From: Lachnospiraceae bacterium MD308
Lineage (GTDB): Bacteria; Bacillota; Clostridia; Lachnospirales; Lachnospiraceae
Assembly (NCBI GenBank): GCA_000403475.2
Contig: KE159796.1
Coordinates: 251,570 to 315,569 of the forward strand
DNA: 64,000 nucleotides
Direction: 5' to 3'
Shown: positions 17,683-33,545 of the stretch, piece by piece
Layout: each line of letters begins with the position of its first letter
How positions within the stretch are numbered: position 1 is the first letter of the stretch
Made by a program: the position numbers and the translations under genes
Notes under the pieces: generated by a model
What the model was told of the DNA's origin: nothing
What the model saw: the letters and a program-made list of their open reading frames with translations, nothing else
Database searches by the model: none

Positions 17683-19762
17683 GCTTGCGGTAAGAAATGT
17701 GAGACGCTCGGCCAGGGATTACCTGGTGTACGTCCTCACCATGACTTTTGTGACGGCGCTGATGTTCGCTTTTAACAGCATCATCTTTTCACCGGATATC
17801 AGGCAGCGGGTTGACCAGGTGGAGATTATGGCGGTGCTTGTGGGGCTTGCTACATTTTTCATCGTGATCATCGTGGCGTGGCTTATTAACTACATGGTGC
17901 GGTTTATGCTTGAAAAGCGGAGCAAAGAATTTGGGACATACCTGCTTTTGGGGCTGAAAAAGAAGGAGATCTCAAGGCTGTACATGCGGGAAAATATGCT
18001 GATGGGCGCGGGGGCGTTCGGCGCGGGGCTCCTGTTTGGGGTACTGCTGCAGCAGATTCTCATGGCGGTGCTGTACACGATGATACAGACGGATTACGAG
18101 GTGCATCTGGAGTTTAACTTATGGTGTGTCCTGACTACGGCGGGGTGCTACGGAGGCTGTTATCTTTTGGCGCTTTTCCGGTGCAAGGGCAGATTTAAGA
18201 AGATGAATATCTGCGACCTGATGAGCGCGGGCAGCAGAAATGAGGAGGTGAGGGAATCCCATGAGCGGGCAAAGCGATGGCTTTTGCCGTTGTCTTTAGT
18301 ATTTCTCTTTCTGTTCGGCCTGCAGCTGTTCTTCGGCGGGCTTTTCGGCGGGTGGAACGGCGGAACGATCCTGGGGTTTCTCATAGGGCTGGTGCTGACC
18401 ATTTACCTTTTTTATACCGGACTTGCGTCTTCCATCGTGTGCTATATCCGGGGGGAGGGAGAGGGCGTTTATAAGGGGCAGAATTTGTTTCTGTTAAGGC
18501 AGCTTTCCTCGAAGATCAAGACGATGCGGTTTACTATGGGAACGATAACGGCGCTTTTTATGCTGGCATTTTTAGGCAGTACGGTGGCGATGATGTTTGG
18601 CGATTACCAGAATAAGGTGTTAGAGGAGAAGTTTCCTTTTGACGTGCAGGTGTACAGCGGAAATGTGGAGGACGATTTCAGGGAAGAGCTTGCGGTGATT
18701 GAAAAGGAGTCCCGGATAAAGGAGGCTTACCGTTACCGCATCTACACGGACAAAACGGCGCAGATGAATACGTGGCTCTATACCCATCTGCGGGAGTTTG
18801 GCAATATGTATGTTACGCGGGATGGAGAGCCGGATTGGAAGGCGCTTGCCGCGCGGGATGACGGGTGTTACTGTGAGTTTGACACGTATATGCTGCTTTC
18901 GGATTACAACCATCTGCGGGAAATGCTGGGGTACGGCAAGGTTTCCCTGGAGGAAAATGAATATGCCGTCCATATAAAGAAAAGGGTACTGGGGGAGACT
19001 GGAGATTTCTCAGGGCAGCTTAATGTGAGGGGAAAGGCGGGAGAGCTTTCGTTTTCACGATATTATACAGAGCCTTTCTCACAGGACGGGCACAACGGCG
19101 GCGATTACGTGATCGTGGTGCCGGATGGCGCCTGTGAGCTCACGCCCTACTATGCGGAGCTTGCGGCGGACATCGAGGGGGAGGCTTTAGAAGGGCTTGA
19201 CGGACGGCTGGATGCGCTGGATAAGAAGGACGTATACAGCTATCTGGACTGGGGGGAGGACGAAGAGGAGCGGTCCGGCCCTAATAATTCCTGCTGCGGC
19301 TCTGACTCTATTGTCTCTTATGCGGCGGTGAACCTTGTGAGGGACAATGTGATCCCGGAGGTGAAATATATGCTTTCTTCGATTGTATTTCCCTGCTTTT
19401 ATATCGGGCTTGTGTTCGTGTGCGTGGCCCTTACGGTACTGTCAGTGCAGCAGTTAAGCGATTCGGCTAAGTACAGGTTCCGCTATGGGGTGCTGGGAAA
19501 GCTGGGCCTTAGCAGGCGGGAGGTGGCAGGCGTCATCAGAAGGCAGCTTATGGCATATTACCTGTGCCCGGCGCTTTTCGCGGCGGCGATTGCGGGGATT
19601 ATTGCGCTCTTTATCAGCAGGAAGTTTATCTTTTACACAGGGGTGGAGACAGGGGTTTTTCAGTATTTCGGAATTTCGTTTTTGCTGTTTTTCGGGATCT
19701 ATGTGCTGTATTTCCTGACGACCTATGTGCAGTTTCGGCAGAATGTGGAGAGCGGGGATTGA
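17672..19762 (+). CDS. BceB-type FtsX-domain permease
   Basis: The roughly 696-residue permease has about ten membrane helices and one large extracytoplasmic domain (roughly residues 315-550) between helices 7 and 8. This is the BceB layout, in which the large loop recognises lipid II-cycle peptide antibiotics. The FtsX motif region is at the N-terminus (LGKLAVRNVRRSARDYLVY). A GTG at 17660 is in frame, but ATG at 17672 is 7 bases after GGGAGGTGAG and is preferred. It overlaps the ATPase gene. It likely signals to the short kinase at 13842. Confidence 0.9.
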   Translation: MLGKLAVRNVRRSARDYLVYVLTMTFVTALMFAFNSIIFSPDIRQRVDQVEIMAVLVGLATFFIVIIVAWLINYMVRFMLEKRSKEFGTYLLLGLKKKEISRLYMRENMLMGAGAFGAGLLFGVLLQQILMAVLYTMIQTDYEVHLEFNLWCVLTTAGCYGGCYLLALFRCKGRFKKMNICDLMSAGSRNEEVRESHERAKRWLLPLSLVFLFLFGLQLFFGGLFGGWNGGTILGFLIGLVLTIYLFYTGLASSIVCYIRGEGEGVYKGQNLFLLRQLSSKIKTMRFTMGTITALFMLAFLGSTVAMMFGDYQNKVLEEKFPFDVQVYSGNVEDDFREELAVIEKESRIKEAYRYRIYTDKTAQMNTWLYTHLREFGNMYVTRDGEPDWKALAARDDGCYCEFDTYMLLSDYNHLREMLGYGKVSLEENEYAVHIKKRVLGETGDFSGQLNVRGKAGELSFSRYYTEPFSQDGHNGGDYVIVVPDGACELTPYYAELAADIEGEALEGLDGRLDALDKKDVYSYLDWGEDEEERSGPNNSCCGSDSIVSYAAVNLVRDNVIPEVKYMLSSIVFPCFYIGLVFVCVALTVLSVQQLSDSAKYRFRYGVLGKLGLSRREVAGVIRRQLMAYYLCPALFAAAIAGIIALFISRKFIFYTGVETGVFQYFGISFLLFFGIYVLYFLTTYVQFRQNVESGD

Positions 19763-19785
19763 CAGAGTATACACGTTGTGGATAA

Positions 19786-19822
19786 GGAGACGTTCAATAG
19801 AGTCTGGGGATTGGACGTCTCC
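19786..19822. terminator. Strong hairpin between convergent permease and rpoN genes
   Basis: GGAGACGTTCAAT (19786-19798) and ATTGGACGTCTCC (19810-19822) form a 13-bp stem with one G-T pair. No good T-run follows on either strand, but the position between two convergent genes suggests a bidirectional transcription or mRNA-end barrier. Confidence 0.5.
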
Positions 19823-19838
19823 CGGGGTTTTCACAGCT

Positions 19839-21134
19839 TTATTTTGAGGGAAGATGTGGGGAGTCGTGTCTTTTTCTTTGGGCAGCGGAAGGAATCTGCA
19901 TCTGTGCCCTATATTTTGCTACGGTCCGTCTTGCGATGGAGTATCCGCAGGAGGAAAGCTGGTTTGCGATATCCGGATCGGATAAGGGGTGCAGCGTATC
20001 TTCCGAATCTATCAGTTTTCGCATTAATTGCTGCATTTTTTGGGATGAGATTTTTTCATCGGAATTTCCCTGGGATAATCCGGAGGAGAAGATCGAGTGG
20101 AGAGGAATGACACCGTGACAGCATTCAATGTATTTGTTTTTGACTGCCCGGCTTACTGTTGAAACATTCAGGTTTACTGCATCTGCAATATCGCTTAAGG
20201 TCATAGGTTTTACACATGCTTTTCCGGTTTGGAAATATTCTGGCTGCCGACGGACAATTTCGGAGACGCACAGGAATAACGTTTTGTTACGTTGTGTGAT
20301 GCCGCTGATTAAAGATTGTGCCTGCTTTAAGCAATCATTTAGATAGCGGCTCACTTCCGGGTCGGAGGTTTCCTTTAACATGTGTGAATATGTGCCGTTG
20401 ATCTTGATTTCCGGAATCGAGGGATCTCCTATGGTTATGGAGAAACCTGAGTCTTCTATATCGACGCGTGCATCGGGGACGATATAGATGGTGTCTGAAT
20501 CACCAAAGCCGGCTCCGGGTTTGGGATTGAGAGACCGGATCATGCGTACTGCTTCACTTGCTTTTTCGGCGGAGATGCCAAGGGCATCGGCGAGCCGGGA
20601 CACCTGATTGTGAGACAGATAGGACAGATACGTGTCAGATTCGAGAATCTGATATACGGTCTGTGGCAGATTCATTCGTTGTGCCTGTAAAAGCAGGCAT
20701 TCTCTGTAATCGATGGCGCCGATTCCTGCCGGCTCTAAGCTCTGGATGATTTTGACGGCGGCATGGACTTTATCAGGCTCGATATGATACGTCTTGCTGA
20801 TATTTTGCGGAGAATCTTCTAACCGGCCGTTATCGTCCATGTTGAGAATCAGATACTTAACGAGCGGAAGAAGGTCTGAGGGAATCCGACTTTCCTCTAA
20901 TTGGTCAAATAAATGCTCGCAGAGAGAAGATGTGCAGGGGGCGGCATAAATAGCGGGGTTAAAGGATGGATGCCTGCCTGTGTATGATTCTTCGAGCACG
21001 GGGTTTCTCTGAAGCTCCAGTTCGATTTTTTCTTTCAGTGATATGGAATCCATCTGTAAAATCTGTAAGGATTGCTGCATGTGCGTCGTAAGTGATAATT
21101 TTTGTTTTTGTGAAATAGAGATTTTCAGTGGCAT
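19839..21134 (-). CDS. rpoN: RNA polymerase sigma-54 factor
   Basis: The 431-residue protein has the Gln/Leu-rich region I (ISISQKQKLSLTTHMQQSLQ) that inhibits open-complex formation until an activator acts, a core-binding middle, a helix-turn-helix, and the RpoN box ARRTVAKYRA (about 401-410) that reads the -24 element. Start at 21134 is chosen over the frame opening at 21158 because a GGAG site lies just upstream and MPLKIS fits the family. It is downstream of and co-oriented with the permease and deaminase genes, next to a sigma-54 activator gene and two -24/-12 promoters. Confidence 0.95.
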   Translation of the reverse strand: MPLKISISQKQKLSLTTHMQQSLQILQMDSISLKEKIELELQRNPVLEESYTGRHPSFNPAIYAAPCTSSLCEHLFDQLEESRIPSDLLPLVKYLILNMDDNGRLEDSPQNISKTYHIEPDKVHAAVKIIQSLEPAGIGAIDYRECLLLQAQRMNLPQTVYQILESDTYLSYLSHNQVSRLADALGISAEKASEAVRMIRSLNPKPGAGFGDSDTIYIVPDARVDIEDSGFSITIGDPSIPEIKINGTYSHMLKETSDPEVSRYLNDCLKQAQSLISGITQRNKTLFLCVSEIVRRQPEYFQTGKACVKPMTLSDIADAVNLNVSTVSRAVKNKYIECCHGVIPLHSIFSSGLSQGNSDEKISSQKMQQLMRKLIDSEDTLHPLSDPDIANQLSSCGYSIARRTVAKYRAQMQIPSAAQRKRHDSPHLPSK

Positions 21135-21173
21135 GACGACTCCTTTATTTTTTAACAAAAATCAGAAATAGCG

Positions 21174-21207
21174 TGTCCTCCAAATAGGCCGAATGATTTG
21201 GAGGACA
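21174..21207 (-). terminator. 12-bp hairpin between the deaminase gene and rpoN
   Basis: TGTCCTCCAAAT (21174-21185) and ATTTGGAGGACA (21196-21207) are exact complements around a 10-base loop. On the minus strand a T-rich stretch follows after about 8 bases. It may terminate the catabolic transcript partially, letting a share read into rpoN. Confidence 0.6.
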
Positions 21208-21221
21208 TCGTAGCAGGCTGT

Positions 21222-22496
21222 TTATTTTTCTACAGTGTAGTTTACTTTTACGGCAGAATCGTTATTGTATATCGTTACATTTTCTGGCTGACGCTTCATG
21301 ATGACAATGCCGTTTCGGATAGAAAATTCCGGTTTTACATGTCGGCGTATCAGGTCATAAGTATCATCGGCGGGAACGATAAGAAGGTTTGCTGTTTTTC
21401 CTTCCTCAATTCCGTAGTCATTTTCCCGGTTAAGTGTCCTTGCACCGTTTTTTGTGATCAGATCAAGAGAATCCTGTATCTGCTGATATCCGGTCAGATG
21501 ACTTACATGGATTCCCATATTCAAGACGTCCAGCATATCCCCTACGCCTAAGGGATAGAACGGTTCCATAATATCATCACAGCCCATGCTTACATTGATA
21601 TGATTGGCCAGCAGTTCATCCACCCGGGTGATTCCCCGGCGCTTCGGATAGCTGTCGTAACGTCCCTGCAGATGAATGTTGATCGTTGCATTGGATATAA
21701 TATTGATCTGTGAACGTTCAAGGACTCCCATGAGTTTGAAGGCATAGGCGTTGTTGTAGGAACCCATGGCTGTGGTATGGCTTGCGGTGACTTTGCCGAA
21801 CATTTCCCGCTTCCAGGCCTGGTGTGCTACCTGTTCGATGGCGCGGGATTGCGGGTCGTCTGTCTCGTCGCAGTGGACGTCTACCAGCTTGTCATATTTT
21901 TCTGCCAAGTCAAAGCAGTGATACAGGGAAGCTACCAGATCTTCTCGCGTGTCCTCATAGTGTGGGATTGCACCTACGGCATCGACCCCCATCTTGACCG
22001 TCTCTTCTAGTAGTTTGTCTCCATTTGGGAAATTATAAACTCCGTGTTGTGGAAATGCTACGATTTGCAGATCCACAAGATGTTTCACTTCGTCTTTTAA
22101 TTCAAGCAAAGCTTCCGCAGATACATGTCCAGGCTCGTCACTGTTTACATGAGTGCGGATGAACTGTGTGCCATGAGCAATCTCCCAGTCAAGTACGTGG
22201 CGTGCACGACGCTTTACGTCCTCCTTCGTAAGTGTTTTCTTTCGCTCACTCCAGATGCTGATCCCCTCGAAAAGAGTACCGCTCATATTGTAGCGAGGCT
22301 CTCCGTAAGTACATACATAGTCCAGATGTACGTGTGAATCTACATAGGGCGGAATGACCATTTTTCCGGATGCGTCGATGATTTCTTCCCCGTTGGCAGC
22401 TTCAAGCCGGGCTTCGATTTTACTGAATTTTCCATTTTCGATGAGAATGTCCCATTTCCCTTCACGTCCGCGGATATTTGCATTTTTAATTAACAT
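21222..22496 (-). CDS. CodA-type amidohydrolase (cytosine/creatinine deaminase family)
   Basis: The 424-residue TIM-barrel amidohydrolase closely follows cytosine deaminase. Metal ligands are H55 and H57 (VDSHVHLD), H208 (DVHCDETDD, with E211) and D307. H240 lies in TASHTTAMGSYN, and the substrate-contacting glutamine Q150 is in FPQHG. In Escherichia coli CodA the ligand motif reads GHDD; here it is GCDD (305-308), a change beside the active site. Bacterial creatinine deaminases belong to this same family. The neighbouring hydantoinase and carbamoylase make creatinine to 1-methylhydantoin as plausible as cytosine to uracil. RBS is AGGAGG. Confidence 0.85.
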   Translation of the reverse strand: MLIKNANIRGREGKWDILIENGKFSKIEARLEAANGEEIIDASGKMVIPPYVDSHVHLDYVCTYGEPRYNMSGTLFEGISIWSERKKTLTKEDVKRRARHVLDWEIAHGTQFIRTHVNSDEPGHVSAEALLELKDEVKHLVDLQIVAFPQHGVYNFPNGDKLLEETVKMGVDAVGAIPHYEDTREDLVASLYHCFDLAEKYDKLVDVHCDETDDPQSRAIEQVAHQAWKREMFGKVTASHTTAMGSYNNAYAFKLMGVLERSQINIISNATINIHLQGRYDSYPKRRGITRVDELLANHINVSMGCDDIMEPFYPLGVGDMLDVLNMGIHVSHLTGYQQIQDSLDLITKNGARTLNRENDYGIEEGKTANLLIVPADDTYDLIRRHVKPEFSIRNGIVIMKRQPENVTIYNNDSAVKVNYTVEK

Positions 22497-22520
22497 ATTA
22501 AAACCTCCTGAATTATATTG

Positions 22521-23897
22521 TTATTGAATTTCTTGTGTCATGACTGGCATTTTTGCTGTAAATGCTTTTGCTGCAAAGTAATAGGCGATAGCGGCGATAG
22601 GCGTGGCGATGAAAAAGCTGTTGTCAAAATCAACAAAATAACCGATCATGCCTGATGCGATGTAAATAAGCACTGCAACAATATTGATTCCGTACCAATA
22701 ATAATATTTGCCTTTTTTCTTATATAGTTCCGGTACATTGTATTCACGCTTGCGGAACAGAAAATAATCTACAAGCATAATGGCAATCGCAGGACCGGTG
22801 AATACGGTAAACAAATTCATTACAAAATCAAAGTAATCATAGTAAGCCCATGGCTGGCAGATTACTGCCAGAACAGCCACAAGGATGATGCCCATCTTAA
22901 ACTTAAGCTTTGGAATAAAATCACAGGCAACGTAAGCACTTGGCATAAGGTTGGCAGAAGTATTTGTCGAAAACTGGGCAACAACAATAAATAAATCTAC
23001 AATGATGGCCAGCAGTTTGGATTTCTGCATTAATAATTCTGAGAATACAACGATTACATCTGTACGGCCGCTTAATACAACGGCGCAATTTCCAAGCAGG
23101 CAGAAAAATGTGAGGAAAGGGATGACCCCAATCAGTGTTGCTGCCGCATATTTTTTGTTCATACCCGTCCAGGTTTTTTGATCCGTGTCTGCGATACAAT
23201 CACGGGTGTAGTCATTATTGCCCATGGAACACATAATGAAGATGCCGATGGCCACAGAGATGCCGTATAACCAGCTCTTAGAGCCTGCATTAGTGCCGCC
23301 CATGTTCATCAGTTCACCCATGGAAACGTGATAAGTGTCATACAGCAGATAAGCAAGATACAGGCCGATGACAAGCAAGAGCGGTGCTACAAGCTTGGTA
23401 AAGCGTTCGATTCCCTTTAGTCCGAACATAGTAAGTACCACTAGAAGGATGATATTTAGAGCCAGGGCGACATTAATATTATCAAATCCGAATAACATTT
23501 TGAACAATTCATTCAATGCCTGAGAACTGACATACGCATTTGTTCCGAAAAAAATGACACTCGGAAAGGCACGAATAAAAGAGGGGAGCTTTGCACCGGT
23601 TTCCCCGAAAGCGGCTACAGTCGCCTTGGCAAAACATAATCCATGCTTCAATCCGATGTCCTGCATGCCGATTGCTGCGAATGCTGTAATCGCAGAGCCT
23701 ATGATATAGATGACGAGTAATTGTTTAATGGTAAAATATCCGGGCATTGCAGCAAAAACAGCAAATCCTGTTAATTGTACAACGATTCCGAACCAGATAA
23801 TCCCTAGCCCGAACGGTTTGATTGTCCGGTCTTCGGTACGCACAGGTTTTAATGTTTCGTTATACTGCTGCATGACATCTTGGTTATTATTGGTCAT
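22521..23897 (-). CDS. NCS1-family nucleobase/hydantoin/allantoin permease
   Basis: The 458-residue permease has about twelve hydrophobic helices and the NCS1 features of a long N-terminal helix pair and polar breaks (IIWFGIVVQLTGF; MCSMGNNDYTRD; AQFSTNTSANLMPS). Members import cytosine, uracil, allantoin or hydantoins with Na+ or H+. The sequence does not fix the substrate. ATG at 23897 is chosen because AAAAAGGAGGT lies 7 bases upstream; the frame is open to 23939. The deaminase follows 24 bases downstream, so import and deamination are coupled. A -24/-12 promoter lies at 24050-24063. Confidence 0.85.
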   Translation of the reverse strand: MTNNNQDVMQQYNETLKPVRTEDRTIKPFGLGIIWFGIVVQLTGFAVFAAMPGYFTIKQLLVIYIIGSAITAFAAIGMQDIGLKHGLCFAKATVAAFGETGAKLPSFIRAFPSVIFFGTNAYVSSQALNELFKMLFGFDNINVALALNIILLVVLTMFGLKGIERFTKLVAPLLLVIGLYLAYLLYDTYHVSMGELMNMGGTNAGSKSWLYGISVAIGIFIMCSMGNNDYTRDCIADTDQKTWTGMNKKYAAATLIGVIPFLTFFCLLGNCAVVLSGRTDVIVVFSELLMQKSKLLAIIVDLFIVVAQFSTNTSANLMPSAYVACDFIPKLKFKMGIILVAVLAVICQPWAYYDYFDFVMNLFTVFTGPAIAIMLVDYFLFRKREYNVPELYKKKGKYYYWYGINIVAVLIYIASGMIGYFVDFDNSFFIATPIAAIAYYFAAKAFTAKMPVMTQEIQ

Positions 23898-23968
23898 ATA
23901 AAATACCTCCTTTTTAAGTTTCTTTATAATAGTTTTCACCGATGTTTCCTTCTCTGATGAGATGTTTT

Positions 23969-23998
23969 GAGCATGTGTGTTCCGGAACGTAAGTGCTC
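23969..23998 (-). other. Structured stretch in the permease 5' leader
   Basis: GAGCA and TGCTC (23969-23973, 23994-23998) enclose the palindrome GTTCCGGAAC. It lies in the roughly 140-base untranslated leader downstream of the sigma-54 promoter. I recognise no known riboswitch class here. Confidence 0.3.
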
Positions 23999-24049
23999 AG
24001 ACGATTATGGTCCTCCCAATCCTCTTTATTTGTCTTATCTATTATTCAA

Positions 24050-24063
24050 GCAAAAAACGTGCC
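24050..24063 (-). promoter_or_regulatory. Sigma-54 (-24/-12) promoter of the permease-deaminase operon
   Basis: On the minus strand the site reads GGCACGTTTTTTGC: GG and GC separated by exactly 10 bases, with the consensus CACG after GG and TTGC at -12. Transcription would start near 24038, about 140 bases before the permease ATG. Confidence 0.85.
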
Positions 24064-24082
24064 TGCATCTATAGGCAGAGAA

Positions 24083-24115
24083 GCCAAACGTCAGTTTTGT
24101 TGCGCGTGGTTTGGC
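24083..24115. repeat. GCCAAAC...GTTTGGC inverted repeat between the divergent genes
   Basis: GCCAAAC (24083-24089) and its exact complement GTTTGGC (24109-24115) are separated by 19 bases. They lie 20-52 bases upstream of the sigma-54 promoter and overlap the probable promoter of the activator gene. This could be a binding site for the activator or another regulator. Confidence 0.45.
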
Positions 24116-24137
24116 AAAGTGTTAGAATGGTTAGAAT
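24100..24137 (+). promoter_or_regulatory. Probable sigma-70-type promoter of the activator gene
   Basis: TTGCGC (24100-24105), a 17-base spacer and TAGAAT (24123-24128) form one candidate. TTGGCA (24111-24116) with TAGAAT (24132-24137) at 15 bases is another. The sequence does not decide between them. Confidence 0.4.
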
Positions 24138-24181
24138 AAAAATTACCTGAATAATAAAAGGAAATGGCTCTGGAGGTACTT

Positions 24182-25585
24182 ATGATGGAATACGTGAAGG
24201 AATATGACTTTCAATACTATAAAGAATCGTACCAGGAACACCAGGCGATTTTAGAGGTTGTGTGCGACCAGATTACCGTGGCAGACAAGAAAGGTGTATT
24301 TATCCGTGTCAGTGATTCGTGTGCTGACAATTTCGGTGTTCCAAAAGAGAATATCATCGGTCATTCCTGTTACGAATTGGAGAAAAAAGGGATTTTGAGC
24401 ATGTCGGTTACGTCAGAGGTATTGAAATCCAAGCGTGAGATGACGATTATACAGGAGACAAAGGCCGGCCGTCGACTGATGGTTACCGGGAAGCCGCTGT
24501 TCGATGAGAATGGACAGATCTGCCGTGTTATCAATGTATCTCACGATGTTACACTGGAGGATGAACTGCAGCGCCGGCTGCAGGAGACACAGAACCTTCT
24601 GGGTATTATCAAACAGCAGATACAGGAGGAGCATTTTGTCGATTCACCTTTGATATTGGGATGCAGCGAAGCGATGGGGGCGGTGTTTAAGATGATAAAA
24701 GCGGTCTCTCTGATAAATGTCACAATACTCTTACAGGGAGAGACCGGTGTCGGGAAAAGTGTATATGCCAACTATATCCATAAGCTGAGTCCTCAGAGAG
24801 AGCAGCCTTTTATACAGATTAACTGCGGGGCGGTTCCGGCTGATCTGATTGAATCAGAACTATTTGGCTATGCCCCGGGAGCTTTTACCGGAGCCAGCTC
24901 AAAAGGAAAATCGGGACTTCTGGCAGCAGCGAAAAAGGGGACGATTTTTCTCGACGAAATATCTGAGATGCCGCAGGCACTGCAGGTGAAGCTGCTGCAT
25001 ATTCTTCAGGAAAGAAAATACCTGCGCATCGGTGAAACTACAGCTAAACCTTTTACTGCCCGGGTGATTGCGGCTTCAAACAGAGATTTGAAGGAATTAG
25101 TAAAGCAGGGGCAATTCCGGGAGGATTTGTATTACCGGCTGAATGTCGTTCCGATCACAATTCCGCCGCTGCGGGAAAGAAGCGTTGACATTCCTCTGCT
25201 CACGACACATTTTCTCCAACAGGCGAATAATAAATATAATCTGCATAAGAAGATTTCCGAGCAGGCGGTCCGGAAGCTGCAGTCATATTACTGGCCGGGC
25301 AATGTCCGGGAACTGGAGAATACCATTGAACGGCTGACGGTGATTGCGGGAGGCGATGTGATCGATGTCAATGATCTTCACAGTATAATTCCTGAGATGG
25401 AATTTGGCATGAACGTTGATAATTCCGGAACAAAATTAAAGGATATTCTGGAAAATGTGGAGAGGGAAGTGTTAAAAAAAGCGTTAAGAGAGCAAAAGAC
25501 TACCAGGAAGATTGGTGAGAAGCTGGGCATTGACCAGTCAACGGTGGTAAAAAAGCTAAAAAAATATAATCTTCAGGCAAATTAA
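24182..25585 (+). CDS. Sigma-54-dependent transcriptional activator (PAS-AAA+-Fis)
   Basis: The 467-residue enhancer-binding protein has an N-terminal PAS sensor (about 22-125), an AAA+ domain with Walker A GETGVGKS (186-193), the sigma-54 contact loop GAFTGA (233-238) and a Fis-type helix-turn-helix at the C-terminus (RKIGEKLGIDQSTVVKKLKK). The PAS domain probably binds the inducer, so this is a one-component sensor. The frame is open from 24164, but GGAGGT at 24172-24177 points to ATG 24182 or 24185. It sits between two divergent gene pairs with -24/-12 promoters and probably controls both, through the dyads at 25605-25640 on the right arm. Confidence 0.92.
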   Translation: MMEYVKEYDFQYYKESYQEHQAILEVVCDQITVADKKGVFIRVSDSCADNFGVPKENIIGHSCYELEKKGILSMSVTSEVLKSKREMTIIQETKAGRRLMVTGKPLFDENGQICRVINVSHDVTLEDELQRRLQETQNLLGIIKQQIQEEHFVDSPLILGCSEAMGAVFKMIKAVSLINVTILLQGETGVGKSVYANYIHKLSPQREQPFIQINCGAVPADLIESELFGYAPGAFTGASSKGKSGLLAAAKKGTIFLDEISEMPQALQVKLLHILQERKYLRIGETTAKPFTARVIAASNRDLKELVKQGQFREDLYYRLNVVPITIPPLRERSVDIPLLTTHFLQQANNKYNLHKKISEQAVRKLQSYYWPGNVRELENTIERLTVIAGGDVIDVNDLHSIIPEMEFGMNVDNSGTKLKDILENVEREVLKKALREQKTTRKIGEKLGIDQSTVVKKLKKYNLQAN

Positions 25586-25604
25586 TTTTTTCAGAGTGTG
25601 TGCT

Positions 25605-25640
25605 GATGATAAATGTCATCTATTGATGATGTTTGTCATC
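25605..25640. promoter_or_regulatory. Twin-dyad upstream activator sequence
   Basis: Two near-identical dyads, GATGATAAATGTCATC (25605-25620) and GATGATGTTTGTCATC (25625-25640), share arms GATGA and TCATC and are spaced 20 bases centre to centre, two helical turns. They lie about 62 bases upstream of the -24 element at 25702, a typical enhancer position for a Fis-type activator. Binding by the adjacent activator is inferred. Confidence 0.75.
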
Positions 25641-25701
25641 AGTATTTTTTTGGAGAGATATCAGACAGTGAAAATAAAGTGATATTGATGAAAAATAGTC
25701 A

Positions 25702-25715
25702 GGTATGGTTTTTGC
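25702..25715 (+). promoter_or_regulatory. Sigma-54 (-24/-12) promoter of the carbamoylase-hydantoinase operon
   Basis: GGTATGGTTTTTGC places GG (25702-25703) and GC (25714-25715) exactly 10 bases apart, with TTGC at -12. The CAC after GG is weaker (TAT) than in the left-arm promoter. Transcription would start near 25727, about 33 bases before the TTG start. Confidence 0.75.
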
Positions 25716-25759
25716 TTAAATATTAATATAAGAAAATATCATTACGGAGGTGTTGCTAT

Positions 25760-26995
25760 TTGAATGTTAATAAAGAAAGGATCGCGCAAAGGATTGATGA
25801 CTTTGCCAGATTCAATGACAAAGATGACGGCGGCGTAAGCAGATTCTCCTATGGGAAGGCTGACGCAGAAGCCAGGGCATGGCTGATACAGATATGCGAA
25901 GAACTTCAGTTACAAGTTACCATTGACCCGGTCGGGAATATAAGAGCGCGTTATGAAGGGACAGATTCGTCCCTGATACCGGTTTTTGTCGGTTCCCACA
26001 TAGATTCGGTACGAAACGGGGGGAAATATGACGGCATTGTGGGGGTCGTAGGAGCGATGGAGGTATTGTCAGTGATGCGTGAAAATAACTGCTTGCCCAG
26101 GCGTTCCGTGGAACTGATTATATTTGCCGAGGAGGAGGGCTCTAATTTCGGAACGACGATGGTCGGCAGCAAAGCGCTGATTGGTAAGCTTTCTGCGGAT
26201 GAAATGGGGGTATTACATACAGATCACGGGGAAAGCTGCACAGAGGTGCTTAAGGCAGCAGGATTTGAGCCTGAAAAAATGGGAGATTTTATTTTGAAGC
26301 CCGGAGATGTCGACGCGATGCTCGAACTGCACATCGAGCAGGGAATCGTGCTTGAGAGGGAGAAAAAGCAGCTTGGCGTTGTGCAGGCCATTGCAGGGAT
26401 GGCGACGATTGAAGTGACAGTATGCGGGACATCTAACCACGCAGGGTCAACGCCGATGTATCTTAGGAATGATCCGATGCCGGCGGCGGCAAAATTGATT
26501 GAAGATATAGAAGACACGGCTGCAAATCATGTTCTTGACAGCACTGTTGCGACAGTCGGGACTGTTTCCTGCAAACCGGATATGCCGAATGTTATTCCCG
26601 GGGAAGTTTCATTTACTATTGACATCCGCGACATTGAGCAGGATGCGATTCAAAAGACCATTGACAGGATAACTGCCTGTGCAGAGAAGATAAGCCTAGA
26701 GCGCGGCGTTAAGATTCAGTTCCGCACAATCGGATCATCCTTGCCAATCCGGCTGTCACCGCGCATTATGGATACGGTGAAAAGAGCGGTTTCTTCATGC
26801 AGTGATTCATGGATGACCATGAATAGCGGTGCGGTGCACGATGCGGCTATGATGGCCGCCATCACCGATGTGGGAATGATTTTTGTTCCTAGTGTGGGAG
26901 GGAAAAGTCACAATCCGGAGGAATATACCAGCCCTTCGGATATCGCGCTTGGATGTCAGGCTCTTTTGTTTGCGGTTACGGAACTATGTGCATAG
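25760..26995 (+). CDS. M20-family Zn hydrolase: N-carbamoyl-amino acid hydrolase / allantoate amidohydrolase type
   Basis: The 411-residue enzyme matches the family that hydrolyses carbamoyl groups from N-carbamoyl-L-amino acids, allantoate or 3-ureidopropionate, releasing CO2 and ammonia. Metal-site residues are visible in VGSHIDSV (H80), GGKYDGIVGV (D91), AEEEGSNF (E125/E126) and LHIEQG, and the lid histidine in NHAGSTPM. It begins with TTG at 25760 after GGAGGTG with ideal spacing. It is the first gene after the -24/-12 promoter, and hydantoinase follows by 41 bases. With that neighbour it should act on the ring-opened carbamoyl product. Confidence 0.88.
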   Translation: MNVNKERIAQRIDDFARFNDKDDGGVSRFSYGKADAEARAWLIQICEELQLQVTIDPVGNIRARYEGTDSSLIPVFVGSHIDSVRNGGKYDGIVGVVGAMEVLSVMRENNCLPRRSVELIIFAEEEGSNFGTTMVGSKALIGKLSADEMGVLHTDHGESCTEVLKAAGFEPEKMGDFILKPGDVDAMLELHIEQGIVLEREKKQLGVVQAIAGMATIEVTVCGTSNHAGSTPMYLRNDPMPAAAKLIEDIEDTAANHVLDSTVATVGTVSCKPDMPNVIPGEVSFTIDIRDIEQDAIQKTIDRITACAEKISLERGVKIQFRTIGSSLPIRLSPRIMDTVKRAVSSCSDSWMTMNSGAVHDAAMMAAITDVGMIFVPSVGGKSHNPEEYTSPSDIALGCQALLFAVTELCA

Positions 26996-27036
26996 ATAAA
27001 TACAGATACGGATAAAAGCGAGAGGAGATTAACGAT

Positions 27037-28428
27037 ATGAAGACAATTATTAAAAATGGGACAATAGTTACGGCAGAAAGCGAGTATTGCGCAGATATGC
27101 TTATGGAAGACGGAAAGATAAAGGCTATTGGAAAGCAGGTTTCCTGCGAAGATGCAGAGGTAATCGATGCACAGGGAAAATATATCCTGCCTGGCGGAAT
27201 CGACCAGCATGTTCATTTTTCTTTTCAGTTCAACGGGACGTCCACCAGAGGATTTAAGACATCCTGTGCAGCGGCGGCTGGCGGAACTACAACAGTCATT
27301 GAATTTGTAAATCAGGTGAAAGGAAAAGGACTGATAGAATCAGTTGAAGATTACCGCAAGAAAAATGCTGACGGCGTTGCGGCAGTAGATTATTCGTTCC
27401 ATGTGGTAATGACAGATCCCAGGCTGGAAGTGGTGGAAGAGATTCCGCAGCTTGCCCAGGTTGGCTATCCGGTAATGAAGCTTTTTATGGCATATAAAGG
27501 GATGTTCTTTCACGCAGATGATGAGGCGATTTTAAAAGCGCTGCTGAAGGCGAAGGAAGCAGGTGTCACGGTGATGGTCCATGCAGAAAATGCAGATATT
27601 ATTGATGTCTTTCAAAAGCAGCTTATCGCTGAAGGGAAGACTGCGCCTTATTATCACGCAGTATCCCGTCCGCCTGTAGTGGAGGCAGAAGCGACGCGGC
27701 GGGCAATCTACCTGGCCGAGACGGCAGGGGCTCCTCTTTATATAGCTCATGTGACTTGTCGTGAAGCGGTGGATGAGATTGGGGCGGCCATGGCAAGGGG
27801 ACAGTCTGTTTGCGGAGAGACGTGCTCGCATTATCTGGTGCTTGACGAAAGCAATCTTGCGAAGCCTGATTTTGAAGGGGCAAAATATGTATGTTCACCG
27901 GCATTGCGCACGCCGGAGCATCTGGAATATCTCTGGCATGGTTTGAACTTGGGGTGGCTGAATGCGGTAAGTTCCGATCACTGCGGATTTGACTGGAAGG
28001 AACAGAAACATATGGGACATGGGGACTTTCGGAATATTCCAAATGGTGCTCCCGGCCTGCAGAACCGATTGTCAGTTCTCTGGACTTATGGTGTTGAAAA
28101 AGGCAAAATAAGCCGTCAGCAGTTAGTTGACCTTTATGCGACGTCACCGGCAAAAGTAAACGGACTCTTCCCGCAAAAGGGAAGCCTGTGCGTAGGTGCG
28201 GACGCGGATGTTGTGATTTTTGACCCGGATTATGAGGGGACATTTACCGTGGCTGATATGCTGCATGAGGTTGATTACTGTTCCTATGAGGGGATGGAGC
28301 AGAAGGGACGTGTAGATACGGTTTTCCTGCGCGGCAAGAAAGTAGTAAGCAACGGGGAATATATTGGTAACAACGGAGACGGACAGTGGCTTAAAGGAAG
28401 TCCGTTCGGCTTGTTGTATCAATCATAA
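27037..28428 (+). CDS. Dihydropyrimidinase/hydantoinase
   Basis: The 463-residue amidohydrolase has the metal-binding HVH (H58, H60 in GGIDQHVHFS), the lysine expected to be carboxylated (K148 in PVMKLFMAYKG), H182 and H238, and the motif SSDHCGFDW typical of D-hydantoinases and dihydropyrimidinases rather than dihydroorotases. It opens cyclic ureides such as dihydrouracil or 5-substituted hydantoins. It follows the M20 carbamoylase, giving a two-step ring-opening and decarbamoylation route under sigma-54 control. No dihydropyrimidine dehydrogenase is in the window, which weakens a purely uracil-degrading role. Confidence 0.92.
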   Translation: MKTIIKNGTIVTAESEYCADMLMEDGKIKAIGKQVSCEDAEVIDAQGKYILPGGIDQHVHFSFQFNGTSTRGFKTSCAAAAGGTTTVIEFVNQVKGKGLIESVEDYRKKNADGVAAVDYSFHVVMTDPRLEVVEEIPQLAQVGYPVMKLFMAYKGMFFHADDEAILKALLKAKEAGVTVMVHAENADIIDVFQKQLIAEGKTAPYYHAVSRPPVVEAEATRRAIYLAETAGAPLYIAHVTCREAVDEIGAAMARGQSVCGETCSHYLVLDESNLAKPDFEGAKYVCSPALRTPEHLEYLWHGLNLGWLNAVSSDHCGFDWKEQKHMGHGDFRNIPNGAPGLQNRLSVLWTYGVEKGKISRQQLVDLYATSPAKVNGLFPQKGSLCVGADADVVIFDPDYEGTFTVADMLHEVDYCSYEGMEQKGRVDTVFLRGKKVVSNGEYIGNNGDGQWLKGSPFGLLYQS

Positions 28429-28478
28429 GGCGGGCATCCATTTTGTGTAATTATACAAGTAAATAGCATAATATTTAT

Positions 28479-28529
28479 CGAGGGTAAAAGCTGCTGTACT
28501 ACATAGCGGCTTCTTACCCTCGTCTTTTC
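28479..28529 (+). terminator. Intrinsic terminator after the hydantoinase gene
   Basis: CGAGGGTAA (28479-28487) pairs with TTACCCTCG (28514-28522), extended inward by AAGC/GCTT, and is followed by TCTTTTC. It closes the sigma-54 island on its right side. Confidence 0.8.
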
Positions 28530-28617
28530 TGTGCGACATGAATAAAGAGTAGATAGCTTAATGTTTTTGTGATACAATAGCGCTAAAGCCTGATAAAAAA
28601 ATGGAGGCAAAATAACA

Positions 28618-30567
28618 ATGATAAAGGACATTATGAATTCAAATGAAACAGTTCTTACCAATTCAAAAGAACTGGAAGTGTTAAAGGAGTATTTCCCGTC
28701 GTGTTTCAGATCAGATGCAAGCTTTGATATTGAAAGGTTTAAGGGCTATTTGAATGGCAAGGTGGTTGTGAAGGGTGAGGGGTATGAACTGAAATTTCTC
28801 GGCAAAAATTATTCTCGTCTTTTGGCATCTGTAGATTCTGCGACAGTAATCATTCCTGATAAAGAGCACAATGATAAACCGGAGAATAAAGACAGTCAGA
28901 ATATTTATATATCCGGGGATAATTTGGATGGGCTAAAACATTTGATCAAAAGTTATGCCCATATGGTTAAGTGCATTTACATTGATCCTCCTTACAATAC
29001 AGGTTCCGATGGATTTATTTATAATGACAGCTTTAATTTTACTGCTGAAGAATTGTCTGTAAAGCTTAGCATTGACGAAGAACAGGCAATGCGTATTCTT
29101 GATCTGACACAAAGAGGATCGGCATCTCACTCTGCATGGTTGATGTTTATGTATCCCCGTTTGCTGTTGGCAAGAGATTTGCTTACAGAAGACGGTGTGA
29201 TCTTCATCTCCATTGATGATAATGAACAAGCGAATTTAAAACTGATCTGCGATGATATTTTCGGCGAGGAAAATTTTATTGGTATGTTTATTATTAATGC
29301 CTCTCCGAGTGCGATAGATTATGGGCATATGGCAAAGATGCATGAATATGCTTTGTTTTATTCGAAAAATTCTCTCAAGTGCATGACGTCTCAATTGCCG
29401 GATGATGAAAAATCTTTTAAATATACCGACGTAAAAGGGGGATTTAATATATACCCGCTTTATAATGGAAATATTGCCTTTAATCCATCTACACGCCCTA
29501 ATTTATATTATCCATTTTATGTAAATCCCAATCAGAAATTGGATGATATATTTTATGAGATCAGCTTAGAAAAGAAATCAGGTTGGATTGAGGTATATCC
29601 TGTGTCTACGAAAAAGGAAGGTATTCCGCATGTATGGAGATGGGGAAAAGAAAAAGCCTTTCAGAATCTTAACGGTGAGATTGTGGGATATTGCAACGAA
29701 GACGGTGAGTACAGAATCGTACAAAAATCCAGACTTACAAAAAAGACGATACGCTCTCTTCTTATGGATAAAAGTATGTCAAGTCGTCGTGGAACATCTG
29801 AGATAGATGATCTTATGGGAGCTAAAGTCTTTTCTTTTCCCAAGCCCACGGAGTTAATCAGCACATTCTTAACTGTCGGTACATATGAAGAGGATGAGTG
29901 TATCATTGCCGACTTTTTCTCGGGTTCCGGAACAACAGCGCATTCAGCAATGAAATTGAATGCGAGGGGAGACAGGAAGATAAAATATTTGTTAGTGCAA
30001 TTGCCAGAAATATGCGCTCCGTCTTCTGTGGCGTTGTCCGAGGGATATAAAACGATTGATGAAATTGGAAGAGAAAGAATCGTAAGAGCTGCCGGTAAAA
30101 TAAAAGAAGAGTACCCAGATACAACTGCCGACCTTGGGTTTAAGCATTTTACGCTATCGGAGCCGACTCAGATGACCCTTGACAAATTGGAAAATTTTAT
30201 ACCTGAAGATCAGGGAATGTTTTTGACGAATGATATACTGGCTGATTTTGGAACAGAGACTGTCCTTACCACCTGGCTTGTAGGGGATGGGTATGGTTTT
30301 AACGCGTCAGTTCAAAAAATCGATTTTGCGGGTTATACAGGATACTTCATTGATAAGCATTTATATTTGATAGATGCCGGGATTACAAAAGATGCAATTG
30401 CAGCAATTGCAGACAGATATGAAACAGTTGGGGAGTTTAATCCGGAGAATATAGTTATCTTCGGTTACAGTTTTGTATGGACGATGACCGAAGAACTGAA
30501 AATAAATTTAGCAAGGCTTGAAGGTACGGAGAAAAATCTGCGTATTAACTTTGATGTCCGTTATTAG
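28618..30567 (+). CDS. mod: Type III restriction-modification system methyltransferase (Mod)
   Basis: The 649-residue N6-adenine methyltransferase has the catalytic DPPY (123-126, in YIDPPYNTGSDG) before the SAM-binding FSGSGTT (434-440), the order of beta-class Mod subunits. A region of about 250 residues between them holds the likely target-recognition domain, so the recognition sequence cannot be read from here. Mod methylates and also directs the restriction subunit encoded 11 bases downstream. The gene is AT-rich with codon use unlike its flanks, suggesting horizontal acquisition. A TACAAT -10 box lies at 28573-28578 with a weak -35. Confidence 0.93.
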   Translation: MIKDIMNSNETVLTNSKELEVLKEYFPSCFRSDASFDIERFKGYLNGKVVVKGEGYELKFLGKNYSRLLASVDSATVIIPDKEHNDKPENKDSQNIYISGDNLDGLKHLIKSYAHMVKCIYIDPPYNTGSDGFIYNDSFNFTAEELSVKLSIDEEQAMRILDLTQRGSASHSAWLMFMYPRLLLARDLLTEDGVIFISIDDNEQANLKLICDDIFGEENFIGMFIINASPSAIDYGHMAKMHEYALFYSKNSLKCMTSQLPDDEKSFKYTDVKGGFNIYPLYNGNIAFNPSTRPNLYYPFYVNPNQKLDDIFYEISLEKKSGWIEVYPVSTKKEGIPHVWRWGKEKAFQNLNGEIVGYCNEDGEYRIVQKSRLTKKTIRSLLMDKSMSSRRGTSEIDDLMGAKVFSFPKPTELISTFLTVGTYEEDECIIADFFSGSGTTAHSAMKLNARGDRKIKYLLVQLPEICAPSSVALSEGYKTIDEIGRERIVRAAGKIKEEYPDTTADLGFKHFTLSEPTQMTLDKLENFIPEDQGMFLTNDILADFGTETVLTTWLVGDGYGFNASVQKIDFAGYTGYFIDKHLYLIDAGITKDAIAAIADRYETVGEFNPENIVIFGYSFVWTMTEELKINLARLEGTEKNLRINFDVRY

Positions 30568-30578
30568 GAGGTGATTGT

Positions 30579-33545
30579 ATGGATTTAATCCTCCAACAGG
30601 GATTGCCGCATCAGCAAAATGCCATAGATGCAGTTTGCAATGTATTCAAAGGTGTTTATATTTCCGCTCCTTCACAGTTTTATGAGAATCCGTCGTTTTC
30701 TTTGCAGGATCCGCATATTGCTGATAATATCAGAATTCTGCAGAGCAAACTTCCTGTAGAGTATCGTTCCCATATTACAGTCAGTGAATGCGGATATCTT
30801 AATCTTGATATTAAAATGGAAACAGGAACCGGGAAAACCTATGTATATACAAAAACGATTTATGAACTTCATAAGAGATTTGGGTTTAATAAATTTGTTA
30901 TTGCTGTGCCGTCTCTTGCAATCAAAGCGGGCGCGGAACAGTTTTTAAAAGATTCTTATGCGAGGCGGCATTTCACTGACGGCTGTGGTTATGGGACAGA
31001 AATTGAAGTGCTGGTGCTGGAAACTCCTAAAAATAAAAAAAAGGGCCGGTCATATTTTCCCGGTGTCGTCAATGATTATATTAAAGGTTCCTGCCAGAAT
31101 ACGAAGAAGATATATGTGTTGCTTGCAAACATGCAATTGCTGACAAATGCTAAAATGCTGACACGTGATGATTATGATTATGGAGCCGAAGGGTTTTACA
31201 GGCCTCTTGACGCAATCGCCGCTACCAGGCCGATTGTGTTGATTGATGAGCCGCATCGTTTTTCACGCACTCAAAAGGCATTTAAGGTTATTCTGGAAGA
31301 GGTAAGGCCACAGGCTATCCTTCGGTTTGGGGCAACTTTTCCAGAGGTAACAACCGGACGTGGCAGGAATAAGATTGCAATAAAAGATTACCAGAATCTA
31401 TTATATGACCTTAATGCCTGTGAATCGTTTAACCAGGGATTGATCAAAGGAATAGCAAAGGAACATTTTGAGCCTGTATCCAGAAAAGAAGAAAAAGTAA
31501 AAATTGTTTCTATAGACAGCAGAGAATCTGTTCGTCTTCAGTATAGAAAGAAAGGTGAGCCTGTAAAGAATGTTGTTTTAAAGAAAGGGGACTCGCTTTC
31601 TATTATCAGTACAGCCTTTGAAGGGATAACGATAGCGGCAATTGGCAGAAGTACAGTGGAATTTTCAAATGGAACAATGAAAACAACAGGAGAAGAACTG
31701 GATGTCGATATTTATATGACATCATATCAGGAGCAAATGCTCAGGCTTGCACTACAGCGTCATTTTGAAACGGAAAAGGTGAATTTTTGTAACAGGACAT
31801 ACAAAATAAAAACACTTGCGCTGTTCTTTATTGATGATATTACATCTTATCGTGTTGGCAATGACGGGAAATATCCGTATCTTTTGGCTAAATTTGAAAA
31901 ACTTCTTAAAGAGCAGATTGAAAAAACAATTGTTTCTCTTGATAGCCATGATAAGGAATATAAAAAATACCTTGAGGCAAGCCTGGCGGATATCAGCGCC
32001 TGCCATGCCGGCTATTTTTCTCAGGATAACAGTGATTCTGATGAAGATATTGCGAAAGAAGTAGATATTATCTTAAATGGAAAAAAACAGCTTTTGTCTT
32101 TCGTCAATGAAAAAGGTGGTTATAATACTCTTCGTTTTCTGTTTTCGAAATGGACTTTGAAAGAAGGATGGGATAATCCGAATGTCTTTACAATTGCTAA
32201 ACTTCGTTCCAGTGGAAGTGATAACAGCAAACTCCAGGAAGTTGGGCGCGGACTTCGTCTTCCTGTAGATGAAAATGGTAATCGGATCTCGAATGAGGAA
32301 TTTGTGCTGAATTATATCGTAGACTTTACGGAGGCCGATTTTGCACAAAAACTGGTAGAGCAGATAAATGGGGAATTGCCCCAGGCTGCTAATATTTCTG
32401 AAGAGAAACTTGAAAGTGTTGCAAAGAAACTTGGAAAGACGTCGGATGACTTGTTTGAGGAGCTTTTGTTTAAACACTATATTGACAGACATAACAATAT
32501 CAAAACAGAAACAAGAGATGTTTTTTTTGCAGAATATCCAGATTTTGCAGTAGGACTTGCATCAGGAAAGGTAAAGGATAGAAACAAAGATAAGGCGAAA
32601 CCTGTAAAAATCCGTAAGGCCGTATATAAAGAAATAAAGGAACTTTGGGAAACAATAAATCATCGCTATCTGCTGTTCTATGATGATGAGCTTAATGATA
32701 ATATGGAGGAAACGGTTCTTTCATTGTTTGAAAAACCAGGAGTTTTTACAGATCTGGTAATAAGAAGTCAAAGGGAGAAAGTTGGAAGTACAGGAACAGA
32801 AATGAATGTTTTAAGAGAATCCGGCGTTCAATTTGTTATGCATAAAACAATACCTTATCACATGTTTTTGAAACATATATCAAATGCAACAAATTTACCA
32901 ATTAAAGTATTACATTCTGCATTATGTAAATATGCAAAGAAACATGGAACTGCTTTTACAGCATATATTAATGACAATTCTGTTGCGGGATTTTGCTCTG
33001 AATTTTCAACATGGAAAAATGAAAACCTACAAGGAAGATTTCACTATGAACGCAGCAAATCACCGCTTGGAGCCACCGCATTGACTTATGTGGATGGAAC
33101 TGTCAGAAATGAAATCGCTCAGGGCAGAATCGGAACAAAAATTGTGCCGGGTACGCCGAGTGCCAAATACTTATATGATTCCTACGCCTATGATTCTCCG
33201 CTTGAAAAAGACAATATCACTGCTGAAATAGAAGAGGTTATTGTCTATGGAAAAATTCCGCGGTCAAGCATAGCGATTCCTGTTATCACAGGAGGAATGT
33301 ATAGTCCGGATTTTATGTATGTGGTGAAACGTGCGGATGGTGGAAAAGAATTAAATATTGTTGTCGAAACAAAAGATGTTGAGGGAAAGGCAGAGCTTAG
33401 AGGTACAGAAAAGGTCAAACTTGAATGTGCCAGAGTTTTCTTTGAGATGCTTAAAGCTGATGGATATACCGTTTATTTCAGAAATCAGTTGGGAAATAAG
33501 CAGATGATCCAGATTATCAATGAGATTATGGGAAGTTCTGATTGA
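30579..33545 (+). CDS. res: Type III restriction-modification system endonuclease/helicase (Res)
   Basis: The 988-residue subunit has Walker A METGTGKTY (GTGKT 83-87), the DEPH box (D223 onward) in place of DEAD, helicase motif VI in QEVGRGLRLPV, and a C-terminal PD-(D/E)xK nuclease with the ETK core around E930. It cuts unmodified DNA with Mod after ATP-driven sliding. It starts 11 bases after mod with an AGGAGGTG site, so both are cotranscribed. Both appear full length with all motifs, so the system is probably active. AT-rich composition matches mod. Confidence 0.95.
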   Translation: MDLILQQGLPHQQNAIDAVCNVFKGVYISAPSQFYENPSFSLQDPHIADNIRILQSKLPVEYRSHITVSECGYLNLDIKMETGTGKTYVYTKTIYELHKRFGFNKFVIAVPSLAIKAGAEQFLKDSYARRHFTDGCGYGTEIEVLVLETPKNKKKGRSYFPGVVNDYIKGSCQNTKKIYVLLANMQLLTNAKMLTRDDYDYGAEGFYRPLDAIAATRPIVLIDEPHRFSRTQKAFKVILEEVRPQAILRFGATFPEVTTGRGRNKIAIKDYQNLLYDLNACESFNQGLIKGIAKEHFEPVSRKEEKVKIVSIDSRESVRLQYRKKGEPVKNVVLKKGDSLSIISTAFEGITIAAIGRSTVEFSNGTMKTTGEELDVDIYMTSYQEQMLRLALQRHFETEKVNFCNRTYKIKTLALFFIDDITSYRVGNDGKYPYLLAKFEKLLKEQIEKTIVSLDSHDKEYKKYLEASLADISACHAGYFSQDNSDSDEDIAKEVDIILNGKKQLLSFVNEKGGYNTLRFLFSKWTLKEGWDNPNVFTIAKLRSSGSDNSKLQEVGRGLRLPVDENGNRISNEEFVLNYIVDFTEADFAQKLVEQINGELPQAANISEEKLESVAKKLGKTSDDLFEELLFKHYIDRHNNIKTETRDVFFAEYPDFAVGLASGKVKDRNKDKAKPVKIRKAVYKEIKELWETINHRYLLFYDDELNDNMEETVLSLFEKPGVFTDLVIRSQREKVGSTGTEMNVLRESGVQFVMHKTIPYHMFLKHISNATNLPIKVLHSALCKYAKKHGTAFTAYINDNSVAGFCSEFSTWKNENLQGRFHYERSKSPLGATALTYVDGTVRNEIAQGRIGTKIVPGTPSAKYLYDSYAYDSPLEKDNITAEIEEVIVYGKIPRSSIAIPVITGGMYSPDFMYVVKRADGGKELNIVVETKDVEGKAELRGTEKVKLECARVFFEMLKADGYTVYFRNQLGNKQMIQIINEIMGSSD

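Follow-up and report, generated by a model that had tools for sequence, protein, structure and literature searches.

Gene neighborhood of the activator

The window, i.e., the whole stretch of 64,000 nucleotides analyzed here, comes from the genome of Lachnospiraceae bacterium MD308 (4,455,623 bases in four contigs) and contains a gene for a sigma-54 activator flanked by a codBA pair on the left and by genes for a carbamoylase-family amidase and a D-hydantoinase on the right. Two sigma-54-like promoters point outward, away from the activator gene. The features of the locus are the following (profile scores are given against the respective cut-offs):

19839..21158, minus strand: rpoN, sigma-54 (TIGR02395, 381.6 against 277.35)
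21222..22496, minus strand: codA-like amidohydrolase of the cytosine deaminase family, left arm (NF006685, 576 against 483)
22521..23939, minus strand: codB-like NCS1 nucleobase permease, left arm (PF02133, 119.5 against 23.5)
24049..24064, minus strand: left-arm sigma-54 promoter AGGCACGTTTTTTGCT, before codBA; vicinity free of dyads; conserved in L018 and L019
24164..25585, plus strand: sigma-54 activator (PAS, AAA+ with GAFTGA, HTH_50/Fis-type HTH, recognition helix DQSTVVKK)
25600..25645, plus strand: 21-bp RNA hairpin closed by a 4-base loop; predicted to be the stem of an intrinsic terminator for the activator gene (fold, terminator scan)
25605..25620, strand-neutral: upstream dyad GATGATAAATGTCATC, exact GATGA-N6-TCATC, proposed activator binding site and 5' hairpin arm
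25625..25640, strand-neutral: downstream dyad GATGATGTTTGTCATC, exact GATGA-N6-TCATC, proposed activator binding site and 3' hairpin arm
25645..25651, plus strand: run of seven T 3' of the hairpin (sequence)
25701..25716, plus strand: right-arm sigma-54 promoter AGGTATGGTTTTTGCT, before the carbamoylase gene; G004 has AGGCATAGTTTTTGCT at the same place
25760..26995, plus strand: allantoate amidohydrolase/carbamoylase-family amidase, right-arm gene 1 (NF006771, 447.8 against 399; TIGR01879, 403.5 against 204)
27037..28428, plus strand: dihydropyrimidinase/D-hydantoinase (TIGR02033, 533.1 against 393.25)

The activator belongs to the bEBP family, with a PF00158 score of 218 against a cut-off of 20.2 and a GAFTGA loop in the translation, and its C-terminal HTH is recognized by both the HTH_50 (48.7 against 27) and the HTH_8 (23.3 against 22) profiles. 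Between the hydantoinase gene and an ion-channel gene (33590-34474), the window carries a type III restriction-modification pair (an EcoP15I-like methylase and a Res subunit, in the region 28618-33545) that is missing at this place in both relatives; the ion-channel frame has 294 aa in the window and 398 aa in the relatives. In G002 and G004, a second rpoN gene adjoins a second, PAS-less sigma-54 activator (L085:3318-4667, L087:2103-3434, L086); at the corresponding place in the window genome, the second activator is present and an rpoN frame was not seen.

Twin dyads upstream of the right-arm promoter

The earlier note on this DNA had described two exact 16-bp GATGA-N6-TCATC dyads with a center spacing of 20 bases, about 62 bases before a -24 element. 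Both parts of this description hold: the copies occupy 25605-25620 and 25625-25640, and position 25640 is 62 bases before the -24 GG (25702-25703). The promoter itself has 3 mismatches to TGGCAC-N5-TTGCW with the GG and the GC kept; it is weak by consensus, which counts against the interpretation proposed below. The window contains 8 matches to the motif with at most one mismatch, a count that was reached in 2 of 100 shuffles. The genome-wide search proposed in the earlier note yields 13 exact sites in the 4,455,623 bases (about one per 343 kb) and a single place as the exact-motif regulon of this genome, namely the twin dyads. Among the other 11 sites, 10 lie inside open frames of at least 150 aa and the eleventh (L092) lies inside a 130-aa frame that by eye resembles ribosomal protein L18; no sigma-54-like site scoring at least 18, on our own scale on which the right-arm promoter itself scores 18, was found within 500 bases of any of them. 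Paired copies of the motif with 2-30 bases between them occur in 3 of 397 family genomes, namely in that of the window, at the orthologous position in G004 and, more widely spaced, in G131. The G131 pair (C3:1077340-1077401, L078) consists of two identical GATGA-N6-TCATC copies separated by 30 bases.

Recurrence of the motif with orthologous activators

Homologs of the activator were searched for in the 6 genomes of the genus and in samples of 397 genomes from the family, 392 from the order and 371 from the class. Further sets comprised 2 genomes from the genus to which G167 belongs, 6 from that of G558, 22 from the family of G967, 28 from that of G987 and 249 from the order of G1092. The sets overlap, and the cut-offs ranged from 1e-60 to 1e-112 (1e-3 in one search). 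The orthologous set comprises the 16 loci, including the window, with an activator match at E<=1e-112; G942 (3.3e-112), G868 (5.7e-112) and weaker matches fall outside. The locus has the properties of a UAS, that is, a symmetric site upstream of a -24/-12 promoter that is conserved together with the activator: exact GATGA-N6-TCATC is found upstream of a sigma-54 promoter in 13 of the 16 loci (12 of the 15 besides the window), which span 8 genera and 6 families (window, G004, G167, G967, G1066, G1076, G987, G1091, G1092, G1093, G1103, G1299, G1190) and, as several are congeneric, are not 13 independent cases. Because the motif had been fixed beforehand in the earlier note, from the window alone, the 12 other loci are tests of it. 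The three misses are G002, which is counted as such despite a deleted stretch, and G558 and G1284, in which both the recognition helix and the dyad are changed. The draft assembly of G002 (L019:1733-3130) has an activator frame that is disrupted close to its 3' end, and it lacks the predicted enhancer-terminator, the carbamoylase gene and the 5' part of the hydantoinase gene, with codB and its sigma-54 promoter remaining; this may be decay or an assembly error. No exact motif was detected at 44 loci of other activators (176,891 bases; L004-L009, L050-L075 and L102-L113, with L077 and L127 examined apart).

The recognition helix reads QST[VI]VKK in all 13 loci with the exact motif. The helix of G558 is QSTVVRK and its locus has GATGT-N6-ACATC inside a terminator-like stem; that of G1284 is QSIIVRK, with dyads of the GATGC/TATGC type (by eye). 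More distant VRK activators (G942, G1007, G754, G808) have GATGC or GATGT dyads with paired flanks just 3' of their genes. The loci with related VRK activators and GATGC/GATGT dyads in paired stems behind the activator gene are L102, L105, L111, L113 and L077. This grouping by helix was drawn after the first loci had been seen; the seven VKK loci fetched later agree with it, one of them (G1076) being identical to an earlier locus over the element. The VKK/VRK difference is possibly a one-residue change of specificity, and the co-occurrence of VKK and VRK helices with GATGA and GATGT/GATGC half-sites, respectively, offers a natural test of the recognition rules for this type of HTH. The comparison of loci, then, lends strong support to the proposal of the earlier note that the adjacent PAS/AAA+/HTH activator recognizes the dyads, given the 12 of 15 other loci, the link with the helix and the 0 of 44 controls.

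In 12 of the 13 loci, a further copy that deviates from the motif at no more than 2 positions lies 19-24 bases from the first; it is exact in four (window, G004, G1103, G1190); with G1066 and G1076, which are the same over the element, counted once, 11 of 12 loci have a second copy, against 0.1 expected from shuffled flanks. In 10 loci, the exact dyad begins 20-22 bases past the last base of the activator stop codon. In G1190, the dyads begin at -1 and +19 relative to this codon, and in G987 the first dyad begins on its last base; the upstream copy overlaps the stop codon in G1092, G1093, G1103, G1299 and G1190. In G167, the dyad precedes an operon with the activator as the last gene. The distance from the dyad center to the -24 GG is 69.5-216.5 bases. 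The G1091 locus, where a chemotaxis-receptor gene sits between the activator and the carbamoylase, has a motif-bearing terminator and a sigma-54 promoter before the receptor gene and, behind it, a second motif-bearing hairpin with a T-run (0 of 200 shuffles as good), followed by a second sigma-54 promoter and the carbamoylase gene.

Genes of the carbamoylase and hydantoinase types lie behind the promoter in G1092, G1093, G1299 and G1190, and within the operon of G167 (the targets in G1093 and G167 and the amidase in G1299 were assigned to Pfam family only); in G1299 and G1190 an NCS1 permease gene follows them. In G1066 and G1103, the product of the first gene (searched against Pfam for G1066) has no Pfam match, and genes for a carbamoylase-type amidase and an M20-type protein follow; G967 has the same kind of first protein and then an M20 peptidase, and in G987 an M20-family amidase is encoded downstream. 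The target genes suggest that the PAS ligand is a hydantoin, dihydropyrimidine or ureide metabolite. The creatinine pathway was considered as well, and literature support for it was not found.

Control of the left arm

As the earlier note had reported, the left-arm promoter has no dyad of its own: the region 23860-24560 contains no site with at most one mismatch, and the lone 2-mismatch site (24000), located downstream of the promoter in the direction of transcription, differs from the motif at 3 positions in each of the two relatives. A left-arm dyad with up to 3 mismatches was also sought in the window, L018 and L019, and none is conserved. It is possible, at what we would put as appreciably less than an even chance, that the two arms are controlled apart, such that the dyads serve the right arm only and codBA responds to another activator or a different site. 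The lack of a local dyad speaks for this arrangement, as does the presence of a second strong sigma-54 activator in the genome, which encodes two such proteins (E<1e-60) along with six weak matches above the family cut-off. Against it, the NCS1 permease genes downstream of the carbamoylase and hydantoinase genes in G1299 and G1190 support placing codBA in the same regulon in the window, and the 1,550 bases from the dyads to the left -24 element are compatible with sigma-54 enhancer action, which can extend across 1.5 kb. The second activator was examined as the controller of codBA, and no sigma-54-like site scoring at least 19 was found near it (L085-L087), which is a weak argument because the right-arm promoter itself scores only 18. 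Control of codBA from a shared enhancer 1.55 kb away is plausible and is the reading we prefer.

Nearly every base of the codBA leader (23955-24046, minus strand), which separates codB from the left sigma-54 promoter, is conserved in the window, L018 and L019. A structured RNA was suspected from this conservation; the fold is no better than that of shuffles (z -0.19), and no Rfam match was obtained for the leader in the search of 18000-30000.

A predicted terminator built on the dyads

The two dyads pair mutually in the plus-strand RNA, a feature that the earlier note had missed. The plus-strand fold of 25586-25665 has an energy of -36.2 kcal/mol (z -8.1; 0 of 200 shuffles as good), against -14.8 for the minus-strand fold of the hairpin region. 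The hairpin starts 15 bases past the activator stop codon and is ranked first by the terminator scan, with 20 pairs, 5 of them G-C, in an A+T-rich stem. With a stable stem-loop, a U-run directly after it and a location behind a gene, it is predicted to be an intrinsic terminator. Two sub-threshold Rfam hits in 18000-30000 were rejected, one to mir-754 over the hairpin (24.6 against 84) and one to the fluoride riboswitch at 19520-19571 (16.5 against 34).

A motif-bearing hairpin with a T-run, i.e., a predicted terminator, is present in 10 of the 13 loci and 5 of the 6 families (window, G004, G967, G1066, G1076, G1091, G1092, G1093, G1103, G1299). The weakest are those of G1066/G1076, with a short stem and 2 of 6 flank pairs, and of G1103 (3 of 200 shuffles as good). 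No significant hairpin was detected at G167 or G1190 (43 of 200 shuffles as good in the latter), and the G987 array, whose fold was equalled by 6 of 200 shuffles, has no T-run. Since these three loci have the motif without a terminator, the fusion of enhancer and terminator is common and not required. Because the RNA of either strand can fold at a perfect dyad, a preference for one strand is evident just in the window, G004 and G1066/G1076, and G1093 has a slightly better fold on the minus strand.

The sequences flanking the motif were compared across loci. In seven distinct single-dyad terminators (G1076 omitted), the six-base flanks of the core pair at 36 of 42 places, whereas dealing the 3' flanks among the loci gives a mean of 21.0 pairs (sd 4.4), with 6 of 20000 deals as good as 36. 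In a wider set of 12 terminators, which consists of five single dyads, five variant-dyad terminators and two twins and leaves out G1103 and G1299, 60 of 72 pairs form against 27.3 (sd 5.4) in deals, none of 20000 being as good. The core is identical across terminators, and the stem flanks differ yet stay paired. Where the motif lies outside a terminator (five sites), 5 of 30 flank pairs form, and at the 11 other motif sites of the window genome, 13 of 66. As the flank pairing is confined to terminator sites, it is attributable to termination rather than recognition; the conservation of the core apart from pairing is best explained by protein binding. Between the window and G004, all 20 half-site bases are unchanged and 4 of 12 spacer bases are changed, while the base pair immediately flanking the cores has switched on both sides from T-A to C-G.

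These comparisons bear on two simpler accounts. It is improbable that the hairpin arises as a side effect of dyads that serve as activator binding sites. Two tandem palindromes can always pair, so that pairing of the half-sites comes automatically, and the arrays of G987 and G1190 lack a T-run, with the G1190 fold no better than that of shuffles; the pairing, however, reaches past the half-sites into the spacer and the flanks, the compensation of flanks between loci is seen at terminator sites only, and T-runs follow. That the dyads are mere arms of the intrinsic terminator of the activator gene, with no protein bound, was our first reading after the fold and is very improbable, having been given up on the recurrence of the motif in other loci and the flank-pairing test: the plus-strand hairpin with its U-run is strong and the spacer is fully paired in the window (six pairs, of which three are G-U and possible in plus-strand RNA only; G004 has five of the six), but the core is constant among terminators with differing flanks, is present without a terminator in G167, G987 and G1190, and tracks the recognition helix and sigma-54 promoters.

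A probable enhancer-terminator fusion

Very probably, then, an enhancer and the terminator of the activator gene are fused in the element at 25600-25651, to which the activator would bind as DNA and whose hairpin would terminate transcription as RNA. From the motif, its position and conservation, the link with the recognition helix, the paired stem flanks and the T-run, all obtained by computation, we infer binding, looping, termination and a benefit, as follows. The activator encoded just upstream would bind both 16-bp dyads, about two helical turns apart, as their conservation suggests, and the bound activator would loop to the sigma-54 promoter some 70-90 bases away and switch on the carbamoylase-hydantoinase operon. 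In the RNA, the dyads would pair into the hairpin, which, judging by its structure and the T-run, would end the activator transcript together with the U-run; the terminated transcript would therefore not leak activator transcription into the operon. The presumable benefit is an operon that stays silent between stimuli.

A more elaborate version, which we regard as unlikely, is a coupled switch in which the bound activator alters the termination of its own transcript (a roadblock when bound, read-through when released), so that site occupancy, activator level and operon leak would be set via one 50-base element; the additional copy in G1091 suggests that such an element might be renewed at gene boundaries as an insulator-enhancer.

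If the fused enhancer and terminator are real, a bacterial enhancer lies within the predicted terminator of the gene for its own activator, an arrangement kept in five of the six families examined, and the same bases could both stop read-through and attract the activator in a compact co-directional gene pair.

Comparison with known systems

The plan of the dyad, with a half-site, a six-base spacer and a second half-site, is that of the TyrR box, TGTAAA-N6-TTTACA; the half-site is different, and TyrR works with sigma-70. The HTH_50 match of the activator presumably denotes a TyrR-type HTH. The best NCBIfam match of the activator is to PrdR, the activator of proline reductase, at 392.3 bits, below the equivalog cut-off of 795, and the target genes differ.

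Sigma-54 regulons of 57 Clostridiales species have been assigned to 39 activator groups (Nie, Dong and Yang 2019, PMC6615313). According to the main text of that study, the UASs of PAS-type sigma-54 activators share with the present sites an inverted repeat, often several per operon, a location upstream of a sigma-54 promoter and an adjacent activator gene; most are at 100-250 bp, compared with 69.5-216.5 bases in the present loci. The DioR group described there controls dpaL-pyrC-argE and purine-related genes and resembles the hydantoinase/carbamoylase pair, a likeness by target genes only. The main text makes no mention of hydantoin, allantoate, dihydropyrimidinase, cytosine or terminators; the 39 groups were compared by this text, and identity with one of them is possible. 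In the literature searched (for PMC6615313, the main text), we did not find described the predicted binding motif and the probable targets (carbamoylase, hydantoinase, nucleobase permease) for this activator group.

A sigma-54 enhancer inside a terminator was not found in the open-access literature searched, and a prior report elsewhere in print is possible. The nearest precedent found is the DNA uptake sequences of Neisseria and Pasteurellaceae (Kingsford et al. 2007, PMC1852404), in which a symmetrically arranged recognition motif has likewise been co-opted as the stem of an intrinsic terminator. That motif serves in uptake, is present in hundreds of copies and has no enhancer role, whereas the element described here occupies one place per genome and is the proposed site of an activator.
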